In this document: positions 273-9,550 of the stretch, piece by piece
Layout of the letters: every line of letters starts with the position of its first letter
Position numbering within the stretch: position 1 is the first letter of the stretch
Notes under the pieces: generated by a model
What the model saw: only the letters and a program-made list of their open reading frames with translations
Told to the model about the DNA's origin: nothing
The model's database searches: none
Virus record (IMG/VR): IMGVR_UViG_3300009094_000079
Location: 1-20,813 of that record
DNA from: a virus
Reading direction: 5' to 3' (one strand)
Length of the DNA: 20,813 nt
Made by a program: the position numbers and the translations under genes

Positions 273-448
273 CAGCGCCGGTCCTTTACTGGCTTCATTT
301 CACCCGTCAGCCGGTCTGTCATCCGCAGGATGGGAATGACAAACAGCTGCCGGTCACCGTTCTGGTGTTCCACTTCCAGGGTGGCTTCCTGAATGGCCGT
401 GGGTCTGTCTTCCCAATGCAGACTAATGACAATGGCCGTGACCGTCAC
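272..448 (-). CDS. Small conserved-looking protein between RecE-like and Sak4-like genes (58 aa)
   Basis: I do not recognise this protein. It is 58 residues, probably a small beta-rich fold: alternating hydrophobic strands (TAIVISLHW, ATLEVEH, RQLFVIPILRM) and a basic C-terminus ending VKDRR. I chose the GTG at 448 because a perfect Shine-Dalgarno AGAAGGAG lies 5 nt upstream and the GTG overlaps the nuclease stop as GTGA. The ATG at 469 is an alternative but has no comparable site. It is coupled at both ends, so it is probably made in step with the nuclease and ATPase and may be an accessory recombination factor (inference from context only). Confidence 0.65.
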   Translation of the reverse strand: MTVTAIVISLHWEDRPTAIQEATLEVEHQNGDRQLFVIPILRMTDRLTGEMKPVKDRR

Positions 449-1320
449 CGTAACTCCTTCTCTAACCATTCCGCTTCATGCCACGGGGGCAGGGTGGCGT
501 AACAGGTCTGCCGTGGATAACCGGTCCAGTCTCCTGACTGGAGACACGCACGCCAGATGTCCAGCGCATACAGACACTTCTTCTCTGCCAGCATCAGCGC
601 ATCTGGACCCAGACTAATGACGCTGCAGGCATAGGGGGGGTAGGTCTCCTGCACGCAATAGCGGAAGATGGCAGGGTGCCCGGTCAGTATCTGCAGTCCA
701 CGCAGATACCACGCAGCCTGAATGTCCCAGCCGTTCTGGAACATGGACCGTGACCAGATGTCAGGATTGGCGCTGCCGCTGGTGGTCTTGAAGTCATCCA
801 CAGCCAGCGGAGTCTGACGCAGCCAGTCCAGCCGTGCCCTGCACCACACGCCGTACCCGTCTTCCTGCCACACCAGCGTGCGTTCAGGTTCCCCATTCAG
901 AAACATCCCCGCACTGCCGCTGTCCTGGTGCTGCGCTAGCTGCAGCCGCAGCGCCGTCACCATCTGCAGCACGTCATTCCAGCGGGGGGCAAGGATAGGC
1001 GTCTGCCCCCGTGCCCATGCCTGATCACGGGCATCCTTCGCCGCATTGGTCCGGTAGTCCTTCGCATCAATGACCGTGACGGCTGTGCTGCCTTCCAGCA
1101 GCAGTGCATGTGCGGCACGGCCAATGTCAAAGGCTTCGCAGTTCTCTGGTTCGACATCCAGGTTCAGCCGTGGGTGTGCCTGCCGTGCATGGGCAGCGGA
1201 GTGCAGGCAGATGCGCTGCGCTAGTGAACTGGACAGGGATGGCGCGGGGCAGGGGTCTGCGTGGTAGACCTGCGCCGGAATGTCATAGATCCCCGCTGTC
1301 AGGGTCTGCTGTTCAGACAT
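445..1320 (-). CDS. RecE-like PD-(D/E)XK exonuclease
   Basis: A 291-residue putative exodeoxyribonuclease VIII-like protein (RecE/PDDEXK family, PF12684-like). It would resect double-stranded DNA ends to produce 3' overhangs for annealing. Visible motifs are GRAAHALLLEG (about 68-78, with the conserved His), RARLDWL (Asp165), VDDFKTT (D176-x-K178, the core of the active site) and DIQAAWYLRGL, the Q-x3-Y motif of RecB-type nucleases. The ATG at 1320 is preceded by GGGGAAGG at good spacing; an upstream TTG at 1344 is less likely. It is the first gene of a leftward operon with the small protein at 272-448 and the Sak4-like ATPase. No annealase is seen in the window. A Cas4-like or other RecB-type nuclease is less likely because no cysteine cluster is present. 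Confidence 0.85.
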   Translation of the reverse strand: MSEQQTLTAGIYDIPAQVYHADPCPAPSLSSSLAQRICLHSAAHARQAHPRLNLDVEPENCEAFDIGRAAHALLLEGSTAVTVIDAKDYRTNAAKDARDQAWARGQTPILAPRWNDVLQMVTALRLQLAQHQDSGSAGMFLNGEPERTLVWQEDGYGVWCRARLDWLRQTPLAVDDFKTTSGSANPDIWSRSMFQNGWDIQAAWYLRGLQILTGHPAIFRYCVQETYPPYACSVISLGPDALMLAEKKCLYALDIWRACLQSGDWTGYPRQTCYATLPPWHEAEWLEKELR

Positions 1321-1357
1321 AGCGGTGCCCTTCCCCACTGGCAAAACAGATTTCCAC

Positions 1358-1418
1358 AGTGACCGTCAGTGACCGTGGTGACCTGCGGAGTGACCGTCAG
1401 TGACCGTGAATGACCGAA
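1358..1418. repeat. Six direct repeats with 10-bp period (TGACCGT array)
   Basis: Six units start at 1358, 1368, 1378, 1389, 1399 and 1409. Four of them are AGTGACCGTC or AGTGACCGTG; the third and sixth are degenerate (GTGACCTGCG, AATGACCGAA). Spacing is 10 bp with one 11-bp step, so all units lie on the same face of the helix. The array ends 37 bp before the RecE-like start codon, the position of an operator or leader element. The TGACCGT core recurs inverted at 5591-5630, and a one-base variant (TGCCCGT) recurs at 5531-5550. Multimeric binding of an RHH regulator or of a replication initiator would fit (inference). Confidence 0.7.
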
Positions 1419-1786: not shown

Positions 1787-2014
1787 GTGAAGAAGAAGAC
1801 CAGGAAGCAGAAGCACACCGTGGAAAGGCAGGCACGTCCCACACGGGCGTACAGCCGGGACTTCACCCCGTCACGGGGTGACGGCCATGACTTCAAGATT
1901 CGCCGCATCCCTGATGCGTTCTGGAAACAGGTGCAATCGAAGGCGAAGCGTGAAGGGGTCAGCTTACGGGGGATGCTGCTGACGCATCTGCAGCAGTGGG
2001 TGGAGGCAGACTAA
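1787..2014 (+). CDS. Ribbon-helix-helix (Arc/CopG-like) DNA-binding protein (75 aa)
   Basis: The N-terminus (about residues 1-32) is very basic and probably disordered. The C-terminus has the RHH pattern: a short strand FKIRRIP, then helix AFWKQVQSKAKREG, a turn with VS, and helix LRGMLLTHLQQWVE. RHH dimers insert the paired strand into the major groove, and many phage and plasmid members bind tandem repeats (family knowledge). I chose the GTG at 1787, which has GGGAG about 8 nt upstream; the ATG at 1703 would place the -10 box and operator inside the gene. As the first gene after a promoter flanked by inverted repeats, it may regulate itself or the opposing recombination operon (inference). 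An antitoxin role is possible, but no toxin is adjacent. Confidence 0.65.
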   Translation: MKKKTRKQKHTVERQARPTRAYSRDFTPSRGDGHDFKIRRIPDAFWKQVQSKAKREGVSLRGMLLTHLQQWVEAD

Positions 2015-2212
2015 ATGGCAATGATGTTAGGCGCACTGTACCGGGCACTACTAGACGGGAAGGTGCCAGAAGAACAGGCACGCAAGGCAGCGGAAGAAGT
2101 GGCGGGGTACGACAGCCGTCTATCCAGCGTGGAACGTGATCTGACCGTGCTGAAGTGGATGGTGGGTACCAACGTGGCGCTGACCTTGTTCGTACTGGGC
2201 AAGGTCTGGTAA
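2015..2212 (+). CDS. Small protein with coiled coil and C-terminal membrane segment (65 aa)
   Basis: The start is immediately after the stop of the RHH gene. An N-terminal amphipathic part (KVPEEQARKAAEEVA) resembles the front of small phage DUF1640-like proteins. A short heptad-like stretch follows (SRLSSVERDLTVLK) and then one predicted C-terminal transmembrane helix (WMVGTNVALTLFVLGKVW). Proteins of this build are common in phages and have no settled function; some are thought to associate with the inner membrane. The family assignment is tentative and the protein would be shorter than most members. Confidence 0.6.
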   Translation: MAMMLGALYRALLDGKVPEEQARKAAEEVAGYDSRLSSVERDLTVLKWMVGTNVALTLFVLGKVW

Positions 2213-2216
2213 CAGC

Positions 2217-2456
2217 ATGGAACCACAAAAACTAGAACATTGGGTGTTTTCACGGGCACTCTCAGACAGGGAAAGCATTTTATTGGCTGTCGTTATCGGT
2301 GCATGCCGTGGTTCATGCGTGAGAGAACGCAACAACAGAGTATGGGGGTGTACCGCCAGAGAAATAGACGTGCAAGATTTCATCCGGTCGAAAGAAATCA
2401 AGCGCCTGAAAGCAATCCTTGTTTCTGAGAAATATTGGGTGGACCCACTTTACTAG
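2217..2456 (+). CDS. Hypothetical protein upstream of the integrase (79 aa)
   Basis: I do not recognise it. It is an open frame of 79 codons, 4 bp after the previous stop, with no convincing ribosome binding site. Composition is mixed, with three cysteines (GACRGSC and WGCTAREI) but no clear CxxC pair. The C-terminal half looks helical and basic (VQDFIRSKEIKRLKAILV). The local base composition is less GC-rich than its neighbours, which may indicate recent acquisition or a non-coding stretch. A second open frame overlaps at 2240-2428. It is kept because it fills the gap in the rightward operon. Confidence 0.4.
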   Translation: MEPQKLEHWVFSRALSDRESILLAVVIGACRGSCVRERNNRVWGCTAREIDVQDFIRSKEIKRLKAILVSEKYWVDPLY

Positions 2457-2470
2457 GACGGCAGAAAGCT

Positions 2471-2505
2471 GGGTGCAGGCTGCTGGTTCAGAGCAGACCG
2501 CACCC
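2471..2505 (+). other. Hairpin in the leader of the integrase gene
   Basis: GGGTGC (2471-2476) pairs with GCACCC (2500-2505), and inside it CTGCT pairs with AGCAG around a 7-nt loop. The element sits in the 84-bp gap between the 79-aa gene and the integrase, 36 bp before the integrase ATG. It could act as an attenuator or a weak terminator limiting integrase expression; only a short, mixed U-containing stretch follows it. Confidence 0.35.
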
Positions 2506-2540
2506 GTTCTAATCAACGGCAAATTACAGGAGTCAGTCTA

Positions 2541-3767
2541 ATGACAGTGTTTCTACGGTGCAAGTGCGGCACCCGCAGCAAGCGTGGGGCAGGCTGCAAG
2601 CACACATGGGCATCACAGTTCAAGTTCAAGGGGGGGAACCCCATCCCGATTCAAACCCCACACATCAACCGGATCGATGCAGAACGGTATGCGGACAAGG
2701 TGCGAACCAATTGGATCAAGCGGGAAACGGGTGAAGCCTACGATCAGGAATTCATGGCGCTGCATGAAGGGAAGTCCTTCACCCCCACCACGGGCAGCAC
2801 CGGTCTGCAAGTCATCCAGTGCCGGGACCAATACCAGGAAGCCGCCAAACTGGAGATTACGACAGAGACCAGAGACCGGTATCTCCGCATCCAGAACACG
2901 TTCATGGCGGTGGTCGGGGCAGAGACCCTAATGCACACGCTGACCCCTGCCGACATTGACCGCTGGCGTATCGCACGGGTGGATGCTGGCGTGTCACGGG
3001 CCACGGTGAATACGGAAATGGCAGCCATTCGGGTGCTGGTGAGGCATGCGGCACGGTCACACACCATCTTTGGGAAGACCGTGCTGGTGAATGGGCAGAA
3101 GGTGGATGGGATTCGAAACTGGAAGCTGCAGAAACACGTGCGCAAGCACAGACCCCTGTCCGCTGAAGAACTGAATCTGGCATTCAGCAAGCTGCCGCAC
3201 CCGTACGACATCATGGCCCGTGTCACCCGTGAAGTCACGGCACGCTTGTCTGAAGTCTTCCCGCTGCAGCGCCGTGACGTAGGCATCAGCACAGACGCAG
3301 ATGGCACACGGTACGGCTGGGTGATCAAGCGGCTGAAGGGGGGCAGTGGTGACCGGTCCACCATCCCGCTGGATCTGGCCCTGACCCTGATGGCGCTGGC
3401 ATCCAGGTCTGATGCGCTGCTGTTTCCTACGGTCTATAACCCGGCACGCACACTGGCGCAGAATGCGAAGCGCATCAGCAGTAACTTCTGCAGCTACTTC
3501 AAGCGCATAGGGCTGAAGTGCTCACACCATGCCTTCAGGCACACAGCCATCACAGCCATGATGGACAGAGGCAATGTTAGTGACCTGACCATTGCGCAGC
3601 ACGCTGGCTGGAAGAACACCCGGCAGATCTCCACCTACGGTCACGTATCCAAGACAGCCGCACGGCTGGCGGTGGATGGTAACGCCGCAGAAGTGGCTGC
3701 CATCCTAAAGACCGTGACCCGTGCCCCCATCAACACCAAACCCGCGAAGTGGAAGGCAGTGGCATGA
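2541..3767 (+). CDS. int: Tyrosine-type site-specific integrase
   Basis: A 408-residue phage integrase that would recombine attP with a bacterial attB. The N-terminus has a C7-x-C9-x9-C19-x-H21 cluster that may bind zinc. A SAM-like core-binding domain follows at about 90-175 and the catalytic domain at about 205-380. Visible catalytic residues are R235 (TARLSEVF), a lysine in the IKRLKGG beta-hairpin (263/266), H330-x-x-R333 (HAFRHTAI), H354 (AQHAGW) and nucleophile Y366 (ISTYGHV), so the active site is complete. The ATG at 2541 has AGGAG about 9 nt upstream. Its stop overlaps the next gene as ATGA. A lineage-specific C-terminal tail rich in Lys/Pro follows the tyrosine region. Confidence 0.93.
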   Translation: MTVFLRCKCGTRSKRGAGCKHTWASQFKFKGGNPIPIQTPHINRIDAERYADKVRTNWIKRETGEAYDQEFMALHEGKSFTPTTGSTGLQVIQCRDQYQEAAKLEITTETRDRYLRIQNTFMAVVGAETLMHTLTPADIDRWRIARVDAGVSRATVNTEMAAIRVLVRHAARSHTIFGKTVLVNGQKVDGIRNWKLQKHVRKHRPLSAEELNLAFSKLPHPYDIMARVTREVTARLSEVFPLQRRDVGISTDADGTRYGWVIKRLKGGSGDRSTIPLDLALTLMALASRSDALLFPTVYNPARTLAQNAKRISSNFCSYFKRIGLKCSHHAFRHTAITAMMDRGNVSDLTIAQHAGWKNTRQISTYGHVSKTAARLAVDGNAAEVAAILKTVTRAPINTKPAKWKAVA

Positions 3768-4183
3768 AGACACACACACAGAAGGAGTCCGCTGGGATGG
3801 CATTCGAACTACGGGCCAACGTGGCAATCCGCATTCTGGTGGAACGGGTGGAACTGGAACACCACCCGCACCTGACGCTGGATGGACACAGCGCACGGCG
3901 CACGGCATGGCAGGCCATTGCGGGGGCAGCGGTGGAACAGCTGATCGATTCACCACCCGCAGCCGTGACGCACCGCAAGTCCCGGAAGCGCCGGAAGCTG
4001 AAGGCTGCCGCAGAGACCAGTGCAGCGGACACCCATACCCACACCTGCACGCATTGCCAGCGCCGGTATACGCCACTGCCGCAGCACCGGGCACGGTCCA
4101 AGTACTGCACACGGCTGGAGTGCCAGAAGGTACGCCGTGCCGCTGCCTCCAAACGGAAGGCACTGAAGGCAGGTGCCGCATGA
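3764..4183 (+). CDS. Zinc-finger protein coupled to the integrase (139 aa)
   Basis: I chose the ATG at 3764, which overlaps the integrase stop (ATGA); the ATG at 3749 would overlap further. The N-terminal 60 residues look helical. A very basic linker follows (RKSRKRRKLK, about 71-80), then a C-terminal treble-clef-like finger with C95-x2-C98 and C115-x4-C120 (CTHCQRRY ... SKYCTRLEC). This finger resembles small HTH-less fingers seen in phage accessory proteins. The basic linker suggests nucleic-acid binding. Because it is co-translated with the integrase, a role in integration control, for example as a directionality factor, is possible but unproven. Confidence 0.65.
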   Translation: MKTHTQKESAGMAFELRANVAIRILVERVELEHHPHLTLDGHSARRTAWQAIAGAAVEQLIDSPPAAVTHRKSRKRRKLKAAAETSAADTHTHTCTHCQRRYTPLPQHRARSKYCTRLECQKVRRAAASKRKALKAGAA

Positions 4184-4506
4184 AGCGCCGCACCATCCGC
4201 CCATACAAACGGCGCATTGCCCCACGGCTGGCATCGGGTGAGCACCGGGTGCCAGCCGGGAACGGTCTGCCCCCCGTGGTGAAGTTTGCGATTCAATCCA
4301 TTGCCGCTGCGGAAGGCCGGTCCTTCAGCTGGGTGGTGGAGGAAATCCTGATCGATTGGGCACGGCAGGACTCCAGGTTGAAGAAGCTGCTGAGACCGGA
4401 TGACGTGGCGTATCAGCCACGCAAGGCTGATGCAGCGCAACAGGCGAAGGAGCACGCAGAAGACAGCAGGCTGCAGGCTGCGGCACACGCCAGGAAGGCA
4501 TCCTGA
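4180..4506 (+). CDS. RHH-like DNA-binding protein in the integrase operon (108 aa)
   Basis: The start codon overlaps the previous stop (ATGA at 4180-4183). After a basic N-terminus (MKRRTIRPYKRR), residues 33-60 fit an RHH fold: strand VVKFAI, helix QSIAAAEG, turn RSFS, helix WVVEEILIDWARQ. The C-terminal 35 residues are Ala/Gln/Lys-rich and probably helical (QQAKEHAEDSRLQAAAHA). It is a second, distinct RHH protein besides the one at 1787. Small basic DNA-binding proteins next to integrases often act as excisionases or as regulators of integration. That role here is inference from position. Confidence 0.6.
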   Translation: MKRRTIRPYKRRIAPRLASGEHRVPAGNGLPPVVKFAIQSIAAAEGRSFSWVVEEILIDWARQDSRLKKLLRPDDVAYQPRKADAAQQAKEHAEDSRLQAAAHARKAS

Positions 4507-4736
4507 TGGCTGAATCGTTCACCAGCACCTACACCTGTGACGGCTGTGGCAAGACGGTGACCATCGAAGGGCTTGCGGACTGCCCCCCGTTCTGGCTGGC
4601 GGTCAGCTTCCGCACGCCAGACCCAGACGGAACACATCCGGGTGGGTCCACATCCCACTACTGCAGCGTGGCGTGCGTGCTGGCATCTGTGGGCAAGTTC
4701 GCCGCAGCGCACGCGGATGAAGACTGGGCACAATGA
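4506..4736 (+). CDS. Small double-CxxC zinc protein (76 aa)
   Basis: The start overlaps the preceding stop by one base (TGATG). C11-x2-C14 (CDGCGKTV) near the N-terminus and C53-x3-C57 (YCSVAC) near the C-terminus form one zinc knuckle pair around a beta-rich middle with FWLAVSF. Proteins with this C-x2-C ... H-Y-C-S-x2-C layout occur widely in phages and actinobacterial genomes as hypothetical zinc-finger proteins. No enzymatic motif is visible. It is the second zinc protein in this coupled operon. Confidence 0.6.
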   Translation: MAESFTSTYTCDGCGKTVTIEGLADCPPFWLAVSFRTPDPDGTHPGGSTSHYCSVACVLASVGKFAAAHADEDWAQ

Positions 4737-5143
4737 GTAAACAGCTATTGGTGCTTGAAGAAGTGCTTGCCATGCTTGACACCATCGGTGCGTCCAAGCA
4801 GACACGAGAGAACTTCCGTAAGCAGGCTGAAGGTGTGCTCGCCAAACGTCCCATGCGCGGTCACGATGAAGTGACGGTGAGCAGTGGGTACGGGCGTACG
4901 TCCCAGCGGGGGTTTGTGGAATTGACGCTGGATGAAGTGCGTTCACAGATGGAACCACGGAAGGCCAGAGAGATCGGTCTGATGCTCATTGAGGCAGCTG
5001 AAGCCGCAACATCAGATGAACTGTTCATCAAACTGCTCACCGAAAAAATCGGTCTGGATCTAGATGACACGGCGCGGGGTGCATTCCTGCTGGACATCCG
5101 CGAATTGCGGCAGGGCACCCGCGACATTTCAAGACCACAGTGA
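4733..5143 (+). CDS. Unknown helical protein, last gene of the integrase operon (136 aa)
   Basis: I do not recognise it. It starts within the stop of the zinc protein (ATGA) and ends 19 bp before a strong hairpin, so it closes the operon. It appears mostly helical and acidic in the C-terminal half (LLTEKIGLDLDDTARGA), with no cysteines. The central segment GFVELTLDEVRSQMEPRKAREIG is conserved-looking. Coupling to the integrase and its zinc/RHH partners suggests a shared role such as lysogeny control (inference). Confidence 0.6.
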   Translation: MSKQLLVLEEVLAMLDTIGASKQTRENFRKQAEGVLAKRPMRGHDEVTVSSGYGRTSQRGFVELTLDEVRSQMEPRKAREIGLMLIEAAEAATSDELFIKLLTEKIGLDLDDTARGAFLLDIRELRQGTRDISRPQ

Positions 5144-5162
5144 ACGTAGCCAACTGAAGCAG

Positions 5163-5199
5163 AACACCCGGCACGGGGCACCATCCCCTGCCGGGTGTT
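5163..5199 (+). terminator. Strong hairpin terminator of the rightward operon
   Basis: AACACCCGGCA plus GGGG pairs with CCCC plus TGCCGGGTGTT, giving a 15-bp stem with one bulged C and a 6-nt loop. It begins 19 bp after the stop at 5143. No long T-tract follows (only TT at the stem end), so it may depend on stem strength or act in both directions. Confidence 0.65.
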
Positions 5200-5299
5200 G
5201 CGCTGTACGGGGGTCTGCCGGTCACCAGCGGCTGCCTGCGCCACGATCCGGCTGGCTGGCAGGGTTCTGCCCCTGTGGCGGCTGTGCCCCTGCAGGGGG

Positions 5300-5365
5300 C
5301 AGCGTCAGCGGCAGCCGGTGCGGAGTAGTACCGGGGTTCAGTGATCAGCCTAGCCGCTGACGCTG
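5300..5365. repeat. 13-bp inverted repeat with structured 40-bp loop
   Basis: CAGCGTCAGCGGC (5300-5312) and GCCGCTGACGCTG (5353-5365) are perfect inverted copies. Inside the loop CCGGT (5315-5319) and ACCGG (5330-5334) can form a second stem, and TGATCA at 5342-5347 is palindromic. The whole could fold as a branched RNA or a cruciform. Function is unknown: it could be a site for recombination, a structured leader or an operator. Confidence 0.55.
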
Positions 5366-5380
5366 GGCAGTCTACCGCTA

Positions 5381-5420
5381 TCCACGGGCACCCACGGGCA
5401 TTCACCGGTACCGCACCGGT
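5381..5420. repeat. 10-bp-phased repeats, CCACGGGCA type
   Basis: CCACGGGCA occurs at 5382 and 5392, followed by CACCGGTA at 5403 and again at 5414, giving 10-11 bp steps. The first pair is the reverse complement of TGCCCGTGG, a one-base variant of the TGACCGTGG seen at 1358-1418 and inverted at 5591. Confidence 0.5.
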
Positions 5421-5467
5421 AGTGCATTAGGTAATCATGGCTGGGGGGTCAGCGCAGTTCATGCCCG

Positions 5468-5580
5468 TATTCATTGGGTGAAATGCGTGTGTCACGGGAT
5501 ACCGTCTGAATCCCAGATGTCGTTCCTGTCAGTGCCCGTCAATGCCCGTTAGTCCCCTAAAGTCCCATATTTATTGGGTG
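5468..5580. repeat. 13-bp direct repeat, copies exactly 100 bp apart
   Basis: TATTCATTGGGTG (5468-5480) and TATTTATTGGGTG (5568-5580) differ at one base; partial identity (a shared CCC) continues just upstream. The 100-bp distance equals ten units of the 10-bp phased repeats around them. Candidate arm-type integrase sites or initiator boxes; function is inferred. Confidence 0.55.
5531..5570. repeat. 10-bp-phased repeats, AGTGCCCGTC type
   Basis: Four consecutive decamers, AGTGCCCGTC, AATGCCCGTT, AGTCCCCTAA and AGTCCCATAT, decay progressively from the first. The first differs by one base from the AGTGACCGTC unit at 1358-1418. Confidence 0.5.
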
Positions 5581-5590
5581 TTCCAGGTTC

Positions 5591-5631
5591 CCACGGTCAT
5601 CCATGGTCACCCACGGTCACCCCACGGTGAT
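5591..5631. repeat. 10-bp tandem repeats, inverted copies of the 1358 array
   Basis: CCACGGTCAT, CCATGGTCAC, CCACGGTCAC and CCCACGGTGA follow each other with exact 10-bp period. Read on the minus strand the consensus is RTGACCGTGG, the same unit as in the 1358-1418 array. It lies just upstream of the gene starting near 5647-5707 and could control it. Confidence 0.65.
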
Positions 5632-5706
5632 CAGAGCGGTAAGCATATGGTAAGCATGGATTCACCCATACTCCGGGGGGAGTCTTCCAGTGCTACGGTC
5701 TGCGCC

Positions 5707-6048
5707 ATGAACTGCTGGACCATGACCTACTGGATGCTGGCGGATGACGGGGAGACCCCCATCCCCACCACGGATGTCCTGCGGTGGGGGGCGTGGTTCC
5801 AGACCGCAGACCGGGTGGTGCGGCAGGACTTCTGGGAAGGGCAGCCGGTGCAGACGGGAGTCTCCACGGTCTTCCTGGGACTGGATCATGACTTCCTCTG
5901 CACCGGCAGACCCGTGCTGTGGGAGTCTCTGGTTTACGGGACCAGCCTTGATGGGCAGATCACCCGCTACCGGTCACGGGCAGACGCACTGGCTGGGCAC
6001 GCCAGCCTGCTGGCAGCCGTCACGGCGCAGCTGAAGGTGGACCGGTGA
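5707..6048 (+). CDS. Conserved phage protein of unknown function (113 aa)
   Basis: It belongs, by recollection of pattern, to a family of small phage proteins of unknown function that carry WARWF-type, STVFLGLDH, ETMVFG and LDG-x-x-RY motifs. Here these appear as LRWGAWFQTADR, VSTVFLGLDHDF, LWESLVYG and LDGQITRYRSRADALAGH. No enzymatic function is established that I know of. The start is uncertain: ATG 5707 matches the family's N-terminus best. ATGs at 5647 and 5656 are possible, and the open frame extends to 5542 across the repeat arrays, which I treat as non-coding. It is transcribed toward the late operon. Confidence 0.7.
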   Translation: MNCWTMTYWMLADDGETPIPTTDVLRWGAWFQTADRVVRQDFWEGQPVQTGVSTVFLGLDHDFLCTGRPVLWESLVYGTSLDGQITRYRSRADALAGHASLLAAVTAQLKVDR

Positions 6049-7127: not shown

Positions 7128-9550
7128 TAGGGCACGCCACCTTCCCGGCCACGCAGCCGCCGCAGTAAGTCCGCAAAGGTAAACAGTTTGTTGGTGGCTT
7201 CAATGGTCCGCAGCGGATACGGCGTACCCCGCGCACCCGCAATGGCTATCTCACTAAACGTCACCCGCTGAATACGGAACGTCCCATTGATCGGCGGCTG
7301 GCTGATGTTCACGGTAATCAATCGGCCCACCTGCAGGGACGGGTCACGGGATTCAAAGCGCAGGGTCAGGTGGGGGTCTTTCCGTTCCAGCAGCGTGGCG
7401 GTCATGTTCGCCAGCAGTTCCACGGGTCCGAAGCGGCTATCACTCAGCGCATACTCAATGACCCCATCGTCTGGCACCGCTGCCTGTCCTGGGAACTTCA
7501 GCCGGTCTGCCATCACATCCCGTGCTGCCGTGTCTGTCTGTTCCAGACGGATGGTCACCGTATCCCCCTTGCGCAGCGGCTGCAGCAGCGCACCCGTGCC
7601 AGATGCAGGCACCCCCACCAGCCGTGGCTGAATCAGCACCTGTGTGCCATACCGCACTGTGGCTGTCAGGGATCCAGGTCCACTGGCAGGAAGTCCGGTC
7701 AATGTCCCCGCACCGATACCGCCATACTTCACCACCAGATTGCCCACCCGTGCCCAGCCACCACTGGTGCCCCCGTCTGCCTCAAAGGGTCCAGTGGCAG
7801 ACACGGGCAGGTCTGTGACCCCTGCAGACACCTGCCGGTTATCCGTCAGCCCAGAGGTATCAGTGGTGGGTGGCGCTGCGCCCAGCAGGTTATCCCCCGT
7901 CGTATCAAAGAAGACCGTATCGGTGTTGTTATTCAACGTGGTCAACAGCTTCAGCTGTGATCCATTCGTCATGGTCCGGTACACCTTGCGCTGCGTGATC
8001 GGGGGTGTCGTCGCTGCCGCGATAGGGATCTGCGTCAGTTTTAGGTTACTGAAGATCGGGCCTTCTGGTGGACGCAGATTGTAATCATGGGCAATGTCCC
8101 CGTCTGGCGGGTTATAGGTCAGCGTCAACCATCCCGGTGACCCAGAGATAGGATTGGCTGGCACGTCCACAAACCCGCAGGAATAGTACGTGCCAGCATT
8201 CGCCAACGTGCGATAGATCCAGACCTGCAGATACCGTGCGGGGGGTGGACTATTACTAAACCCGCTCAGATACGTAAAGCCTTGCGGGGCCAGTAGCGTA
8301 TCCCCGCACCAGATCTGCCAATACTTCCCGTTATAGGTCAGTGGTCCAGCAACAGGACCGTTCCAGGACTTCGTGCCCCCTTCAATACTGAAGATGGTGA
8401 AGAAGTGATAGACCCCACCCACCACTGGTCCTGGTGTCCCCGCTGGCGTGGTGGACTCCCGCATGGTGCAGGACGTGGGCACTGGCGGGTTCTGCCCAGA
8501 CGGGATGCCAGTGACCAGTGGACCCGGCAGGGTTTCGCCAGACCCCGTGACAAAGGTCACGGCGTACTTATAGGATGCCCCCACCGTCAACGCTGATGCG
8601 CCACCGTATTGGATGACGGATGGCGCACTGGTCGGACTATTGCCCACCCCCACCAGCGCACCAGTCCCACCACGTCCACGCACACCCGCATACGTCACCC
8701 GCTGGGCATTGATTTCCACAATGCCACCCGTGGGCGTATACCAGGACTGCTGCGTATTCTCCCCTTCATCCAGCGGTATCTCTGTGGCACCCGCCTGCAC
8801 ATCAATCACCGCACTGACTCCACCCCCACGACCAATGACGCGGGTGATGACCTGCGATAAGTCTTCCGTCAGTGTAAAGTGCCGTGCCGTGCGTGGGGTG
8901 GAGTCCGTAATGGAATACGCCGTGCCGGGTTCACTGGTGTACAGATGCAGGTCACCGGCATAGTCCACATACCAGTACGCGCCAATCCGCCGACAGATTT
9001 CCGTCAGGCAACTGGGCACCTGTTCATTCGTGAAGGTGATCGCATCAATGACCGGCAGTCCCGCCTGCACGTGCTGCGTGGTGACATTGCGGCAGAAGCG
9101 GGTGATCAGGTCCACCGCAATGGTGGACGCGGACTGGTTCACGTAGGTGCCCAGCACCAGCGTGCGCTGCATCATCCAGGTGGGATCAATGCAGTTGATG
9201 TCATACGCCACGTTCTGCTTCGTGTCTTCATACAGCAGCGTGGTTTCCAGAATCCTGCCCCCGAATAGCTGATGGTCGGCGGAGTACTCCCCCGTATAGA
9301 CCTGTAGCGTCTGCCCAGCCACGGGAGTGAACCCACTGGTTCTGAACTGCGCCGTGTCTGGCTGTTCATTCAGCTGGTGGGTAATCCCTGCCCCTTCAAT
9401 CCGCAGACCCTTGCCGGGTCCGGTCTGGGGATTACTGCCATTGATGATGCCTGCCATCCACGCTTCATAGACATTCAGCCGTGCGGCCTTCAGCCGCATC
9501 ATGCCCAGACGGGCACAGCCCTGTTTATGGTTCGGGGATAGGGGGGCCAT
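7127..9550 (-). CDS. Tail hub / tip protein with duplicated beta modules (807 aa)
   Basis: A large tail protein directly after the tape measure, the usual place for a distal tail or hub protein. Residues 45-240 look like a hub domain (QTLQVYTGEY, FGGRILETTLLYED, WYVDYAGDLHLYTSE). Two related modules are seen at about 250-300 (AGATEIPLDEGEN ... INAQRVTYAGV) and 575-635 (AGVTDLPVSATGP ... VGNLVVKYGG), an internal duplication. Between them lie fibronectin-III-like stretches at about 323-350 (YKYAVTFVTGSGETLPGP) and 505-565 (RKVYRTMTNGSQLKLLTTL). The C-terminus has RLITVNISQPPINGTFRIQRV, common in hub proteins. The start at 9550 has no strong ribosome binding site; ATG 9502 is an alternative. Confidence 0.75.
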   Translation of the reverse strand: MAPLSPNHKQGCARLGMMRLKAARLNVYEAWMAGIINGSNPQTGPGKGLRIEGAGITHQLNEQPDTAQFRTSGFTPVAGQTLQVYTGEYSADHQLFGGRILETTLLYEDTKQNVAYDINCIDPTWMMQRTLVLGTYVNQSASTIAVDLITRFCRNVTTQHVQAGLPVIDAITFTNEQVPSCLTEICRRIGAYWYVDYAGDLHLYTSEPGTAYSITDSTPRTARHFTLTEDLSQVITRVIGRGGGVSAVIDVQAGATEIPLDEGENTQQSWYTPTGGIVEINAQRVTYAGVRGRGGTGALVGVGNSPTSAPSVIQYGGASALTVGASYKYAVTFVTGSGETLPGPLVTGIPSGQNPPVPTSCTMRESTTPAGTPGPVVGGVYHFFTIFSIEGGTKSWNGPVAGPLTYNGKYWQIWCGDTLLAPQGFTYLSGFSNSPPPARYLQVWIYRTLANAGTYYSCGFVDVPANPISGSPGWLTLTYNPPDGDIAHDYNLRPPEGPIFSNLKLTQIPIAAATTPPITQRKVYRTMTNGSQLKLLTTLNNNTDTVFFDTTGDNLLGAAPPTTDTSGLTDNRQVSAGVTDLPVSATGPFEADGGTSGGWARVGNLVVKYGGIGAGTLTGLPASGPGSLTATVRYGTQVLIQPRLVGVPASGTGALLQPLRKGDTVTIRLEQTDTAARDVMADRLKFPGQAAVPDDGVIEYALSDSRFGPVELLANMTATLLERKDPHLTLRFESRDPSLQVGRLITVNISQPPINGTFRIQRVTFSEIAIAGARGTPYPLRTIEATNKLFTFADLLRRLRGREGGVP

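Follow-up and report, generated by a model that had tools for sequence, protein, structure and literature searches.

A 10-bp repeat unit shared by a putative phage attachment region and the early-gene switch points to an excisionase-like protein as its candidate binder

Introduction

Downstream of the integrase genes of a virus record, 20,813 bp in length and referred to as a whole as the window, lies a short region (5381–5631) filled with repeats spaced by ten base pairs, which raises the question of which protein might bind there and what it would do. A preliminary description of the sequence had offered iterons of an origin, integrase arm sites of a phage attachment site (attP) or a multi-site operator as possible readings. 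With a probability of roughly 60% we propose that the 10-bp units are helically phased sites of an excision factor within attP, and that the same protein would also act at the early-gene switch in the manner of Apl from coliphage 186.

Results and Discussion

Genome organization

A near-identical record (G001, 30,728 bp) matched the whole window at 99.89%, and as its ends are identical over 123 bp we read it as a circle of 30,605 bp, whose circular coordinates equal those of the window. The early operon runs leftward from about 1320, begins with an exonuclease VIII-like gene (445–1320, minus strand) and continues with an AAA protein, more genes, a replication-initiator-like gene (circular 27236–27625) and, beyond the window, a gene for an excisionase-like winged helix-turn-helix (wHTH) protein (circular 26331–26609, minus strand; L004:3164–3442). 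Running rightward from 1787 to 5143, the integrase operon encodes an Arc-like ribbon-helix-helix (RHH) protein as its first gene (1787–2014, plus strand), a tyrosine integrase (2541–3767, plus strand; phrog_1, E 4e-28) and small genes, and also a second, weakly RHH-like protein (4180–4506, plus strand). The late operon extends leftward from the terminase genes (18766–21019) down to about 6346. The repeat region follows the integrase operon, as had been described, and is located between the convergent ends of this operon (last gene 4733–5143) and of the late operon. That it contains no gene, also part of the earlier description, is likely: an open reading frame can be read from 5542, though it may just as well start downstream of 5650. 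Neither tRNA genes nor Rfam families were detected in G001. Searches for relatives gave no direct match of the window among annotated phages, no integrase match by tblastn in phages, no integrase relatives across 84,980 genomes and, in 50 genomes from a single Verrucomicrobia family, neither integrase nor terminase.

One repeat unit at two loci

To judge the periodicity against chance, 2000 dinucleotide shuffles of the region were used. Lag-10 identity in 5381–5631 is 0.390 compared to 0.253 in the shuffles (z 4.7), none of which reached the observed value, and 23 near-identical 8-mers occur at lag 10, whereas the shuffles have 0.19 on average and never more than 7. Lags 9, 11 and 20 are mildly raised, which fits a helical phasing with one-base slips. 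Tandem repeats finder (TRF) returned 10-bp arrays at 5382–5400, 5528–5549 and 5590–5628, and thus recovered the three repeat sets that had been noticed before. The 13-bp repeat was likewise found as described, with TATTCATTGGGTG at 5468 and TATTTATTGGGTG at 5568 being exactly 100 bp apart; other copies with up to two mismatches are present in the genome only at 7262 and 18413.

Sliding the lag-10 8-mer count round the circular genome ranked 5381–5631 first and 1351–1418 second with nothing else close, and strong 10-bp tandem repeats are confined to these two loci of the 30,605 bp. The second locus precedes the early operon, which begins with the exonuclease gene and diverges from the integrase operon. 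The three sets, rightly called related, represent one motif in two orientations, RTGMCCGT when read in the proper orientation at both loci, but a fourth set (1357–1418) and repeats of a second type, GGTAAKCAT, had been overlooked. We refer to the sets as blocks A to D. Block A (1357–1418, plus strand) precedes the exonuclease VIII-like gene at the divergent early/lysogeny switch and consists of two triplets of the unit 31 bp apart; it is the longest array, 4 kb away from the other blocks. Block B (5383–5402, minus strand) has the two 10-bp units GGTGCCCGTG and AATGCCCGTG, block C (5531–5570, plus strand) has AGTGCCCGTC and AATGCCCGTT followed by two decayed units, and block D (5592–5632, minus strand) has GATGACCGTG, GGTGACCATG and GGTGACCGTG with a weaker fourth unit 11 bp further on. 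A weight matrix built from block A alone and scanned over the genome at the strictest cut-off, with pairs spaced 9–11 bp, gave 11 pairs, three of them in A, four in B–D and four scattered over the remaining 30 kb. Runs of RTGMCC at 9–11 bp occur in G001 in blocks A, B, C and D alone. Scanning for sigma-70 promoters gave no match in 5100–5760 and a single weak one upstream of block A.

Helically phased repeats at a place where no conserved gene is found could in principle be iterons of a replication origin, but identical units at the switch would not be expected for iterons. The detrended extremes of the cumulative GC skew (1075 and 6239) fall near points where the coding strand switches, and the replication-initiator-like gene is far from both repeat loci, namely about 8.7 kb from the region around the circle. 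No origin signal was found, and we give this reading almost no credence.

The unit differs at all places in a related phage

A relative of 30,537 bp (G002) encodes an integrase that is 80% identical and allowed a direct comparison of the sites. All four blocks are kept there with offsets within 1 bp and in the same orientations, with the unit being RTGAAN instead of RTGMCCGT. The offset between the two genomes is +7620 or +7619 from block B to the right arm sites described below and +6995 at block A, and despite these constant offsets the gap-free identity is just 56%. Block B has a third good unit in G002 at the position matching 5373–5382, and the first of the two decayed units of block C is a good unit in G002. 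At position 5 of the unit a C is present in 13/13 sites of G001 and an A in 13/13 counterparts in G002, a count that is partly circular as the compared sites (A1, A2, A4, A5, A6, B1, B2, C1, C2, C3, D1, D2 and D3) were picked by motif match. The preceding TG is common to both phages in 12 of the 13. The non-circular part comes from G002 itself, searched independently with its own unit: runs of at least three RTGAA occur genome-wide only at the four places homologous to A–D and on the same strands, and the only two RTGMCC pairs in G002 are both away from these places.

As all sites changed together, the comparison suggests that one trans-acting protein reads both loci and serves the switch as well as the attachment region. 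Such a coordinated change would be expected from a specificity change of one protein serving all sites, unlike independent drift. The co-divergence, our strongest result, is a single comparison, the site being carried by just two phage lineages; searching with an integrase alignment did not yield a third. Homologues of the gene at 4733–5143 are present in G003 (93% identical) and in L022 with unrelated neighbouring sequence, so the repeats are not comparable there, and relatives of the excisionase-like protein on two short contigs (L057 and L058) are accompanied by no repeat arrays.

Evidence for an attachment site

The exact motif GGTAAKCAT is present in G001 only at 5430, 5638 and 5649, with a related partner CGGTAGTGCATTA at 5417. 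These repeats flank the region and look like integrase arm sites, forming a putative left doublet (5417–5442, plus strand; CGGTAGTGCATTA and GGTAATCATGG), of which 25 bp are identical in G002, and putative right sites (5625–5659, plus strand; CGGTGATCAG, GGTAAGCATAT and GGTAAGCATGG). Their layout is the same in G002 and the repeats are nearly unchanged, as is the integrase. The two longest identical blocks between both genomes in this region are 5417–5441, within the left doublet, and 5462–5482 on the plus strand. This second block of 21 bp is our candidate for the crossover core and includes CCCG-TATTCAT-TGGG at 5464–5478, in which 7 bp are enclosed by a short inverted pair. Such an arrangement suits the core of a tyrosine integrase, which makes it plausible that strand exchange takes place here. 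A second core-like copy, CCCA-TATTTAT-TGGG (5564–5578, plus strand), follows 100 bp downstream, corresponds to the 13-bp repeat mentioned above and is degenerate in G002. No attB, attL, attR or lysogen junction was found, and the position of the candidate core is a guess.

In order to find a host attB, the 18-mer CCCGTATTCATTGGGTGA was searched in 84,980 genomes and gave seven matches, which is about what chance predicts, and it is not claimed as a host core. One match, from Verrucomicrobia, extends to 25 bp; no prophage was seen there.

In the syntenic G003, a sequence resembling a tRNA 3' end is located at the equivalent place (L021:2821–2862). It is likely the attP core of that phage and in line with an attachment site at this place. 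The earlier suggestion of attP is favoured by the position, the arm-like repeats and the conserved core-like block, although no lysogen junction was found.

The suggestion that the 10-bp units themselves are arm-type sites of the integrase is probably wrong. They flank the core-like block and adjoin the integrase operon, and arm sites of the lambda type can be spaced by about 10 bp. However, the longest array of units is at the early switch, and the units have changed between two phages whose integrases are conserved in their N-terminal part, while GGTAAKCAT shows the placement expected for arm sites and is nearly unchanged. We therefore regard this explanation as quite improbable.

Candidate binding proteins

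The integrase, the two RHH-like proteins and the wHTH protein were considered as binders. The wHTH protein of 92 amino acids belongs to the excisionase family: it scores above the cutoffs of NCBIfam TIGR01764 'excisionase family' (34.4 against 28.8 bits) and of Pfam HTH_17 (46 against 27 bits), and it matches phrog_66 'excisionase and transcriptional regulator'. Its sole sequence match in the PDB is Pukovnik Xis (E 0.011). The AlphaFold model has a mean pLDDT of 68.6 with about 72–88 in the wHTH part, and in structure comparisons it ranked Pukovnik Xis, RdfS, BldC and the DNA-binding domains of small terminases highest with modest scores (Foldseek E 0.011 or worse, none below 0.001; Z at most 7.5). 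Between the two phages this protein differs most in its helix-turn-helix (DMSPGTLKNWVSRG in G001 and GVKRGTLFNWVSRS in G002), while the wing and the C-terminal part are nearly identical. The strand with which the RHH protein presumably contacts DNA is nearly identical (FKIRRIP and FKVRRIP). A helix-turn-helix that differs together with an RHH contact strand that does not is, as a correlation, evidence for the wHTH protein, and from these sequences we infer that it is the probable binder of the 10-bp units.

If instead the units were operators of the Arc-like RHH protein, this protein would be a lysogeny repressor that silences the early promoter at block A and would also coat attP. Several RHH proteins bind tandem sites, the gene is the first of the operon that diverges from block A, the protein matches an Arc-like repressor (phrog_6506, E 1e-6), and no CI-like repressor was found among the proteins scanned. 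The nearly identical contact strand is difficult to reconcile with units that differ throughout, a repressor needs no three blocks at the attachment region, and direct repeats spaced by a helical turn are a signature of excision factors (PMC7498355). This makes the RHH protein a rather unlikely binder of the 10-bp units. In the window upstream of its gene (1600–1760) we observed the palindromes GGTCCTAGGACC and ATGGGGGCA...TGCCCCCAT around promoter-like sequences, which are partly kept in G002 and could possibly be the operator of the RHH protein.

The excisionase-like protein also matched phrog_57, a small terminase family, and in other phages CCCGTATTCATTGGGTGA and GTGAAC repeats directly precede a Nu1-like small terminase gene. 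Both would fit a packaging (cos) site with the units as small-terminase sites. The small terminase of the phage itself is of another family (Terminase_4) and is encoded beside the large subunit at the opposite end of the late operon (20561–21019), the region 5381–5660 is not adjacent to the terminase genes, and block A at the switch would be left unexplained. A packaging site is hence highly improbable here.

Comparison with known systems and proposed mechanism

Apl of phage 186, a dual excisionase and regulator of lysis and lysogeny, binds direct repeats spaced by 10–11 bp, both at attP and between the early promoters, and it does so cooperatively and with low specificity at loosely conserved units (PMC7498355). 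The repeats bound by Apl and other excision factors at att and switch are direct and follow each other at one helical turn, with Pukovnik Xis and lambda Xis binding head-to-tail, one unit per helical turn, and P2 Cox and HP1 Cox also regulate lytic and lysogenic promoters (PMC7498355). RdfS of ICEMlSymR7A, an excision factor with a wHTH, binds to a promoter region as well as to attP (PMC11963761), and the Pf4 excisionase also controls the lysis–lysogeny decision (PMC7379572). The likeness to Apl consists in common units at attachment region and switch, a feature of the Apl/Cox group that is present in both G001 and G002. The drifting of units, which had been called unusual, does occur, but it is expected for relaxed and cooperative excision-factor sites (PMC7498355). 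The multi-site operator of the preliminary description was partly right, as RTGMCCGT units recur at the early-gene switch.

What sets the system apart from those described is the place of the gene, the three alternating blocks and a unit that changes from one relative to the other. The early operon of the P2-like Cox/Apl group begins with the excisionase gene, and the candidate gene here is located several genes down; it would thus work like Apl, yet we do not file it with this group. In P2-like phages the lytic and lysogenic promoters face each other, while the operons diverge from the switch here, and no P2-type repressor was found. The best match of the candidate in sequence and fold is Pukovnik Xis (PDB 4j2n) with an aligned identity of about 25%; for Pukovnik Xis and lambda Xis no described switch-region site was found. 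The sites of RdfS (PDB 8dgl) have no consensus motif, whereas the unit here is clear.

According to our model, 5381–5631 would be part of the attP of a temperate phage, in which the integrase binds GGTAAKCAT-type arm sites on the left (5417–5442) and on the right (5625–5659) and cuts at a core near 5462–5482. A small winged-helix excision factor, expressed from the early operon, would occupy blocks B, C and D cooperatively, its monomers aligned head to tail at one per helical turn, and may bend the DNA in favour of excision. On block A the same factor would adjust early versus lysogenic transcription, as Apl does. Several points stand against the model, among them the weak structural matches: the excisionase-like gene follows several genes after the exonuclease gene instead of being the first of the early operon, and three blocks with alternating orientation around the candidate core exceed the usual set of excisionase sites. 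Only tentatively, and with odds clearly below even, we suggest that B, C and D carry three oppositely oriented filaments round one core, and that between the two close relatives the DNA specificity of the factor was switched, with all sites at two unlinked loci following. If true, excision would involve a folded complex, in contrast to Apl, Cox or lambda Xis with their single tandem arrays.

Two phages with nearly the same integrase and a re-coded set of putative excision-factor sites represent a natural experiment, with which it can be tested how a regulator of attP and switch changes its DNA specificity while keeping both functions. One 10-bp unit occurring at an integrase-proximal region and at the switch might also be used as a computational signature for dual excisionase-regulators in uncultured temperate phages.

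Further observations

Over 20 contigs of related phages (L041:10700–10900, L029, L037, L044 and others) carry the 18-mer CCCGTATTCATTGGGTGA upstream of Nu1-like small terminase genes, and the GTGAAC repeats that flank it there equal the unit of G002. In a Verrucomicrobia MAG its 25-bp version lies about 45 bp inside the tmRNA-3'-end junction of an element, and three related genomes have one-mismatch copies of the first 20 bp of this version. Four genomes from a single Verrucomicrobia family (L061:4136–4278, L069, L071 and L072) thus have a 20–25 bp version of the core-like block, which, lying in the tmRNA duplication, might serve as a landing site or be an att feature in common. As the independent matches are near chance, we regard these contexts as suggestive and do not build upon them. 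In L061:1913–7142 three tmRNA 3' ends follow in a row (2242, 4203 and 6931), which looks as if integrated elements had piled up. Upstream of the terminase genes, TGCCCCC repeats occur at circular 22800–23100 (end of L005) and at L024:390–520, near both contig breaks, and these repeats are a possible packaging site.
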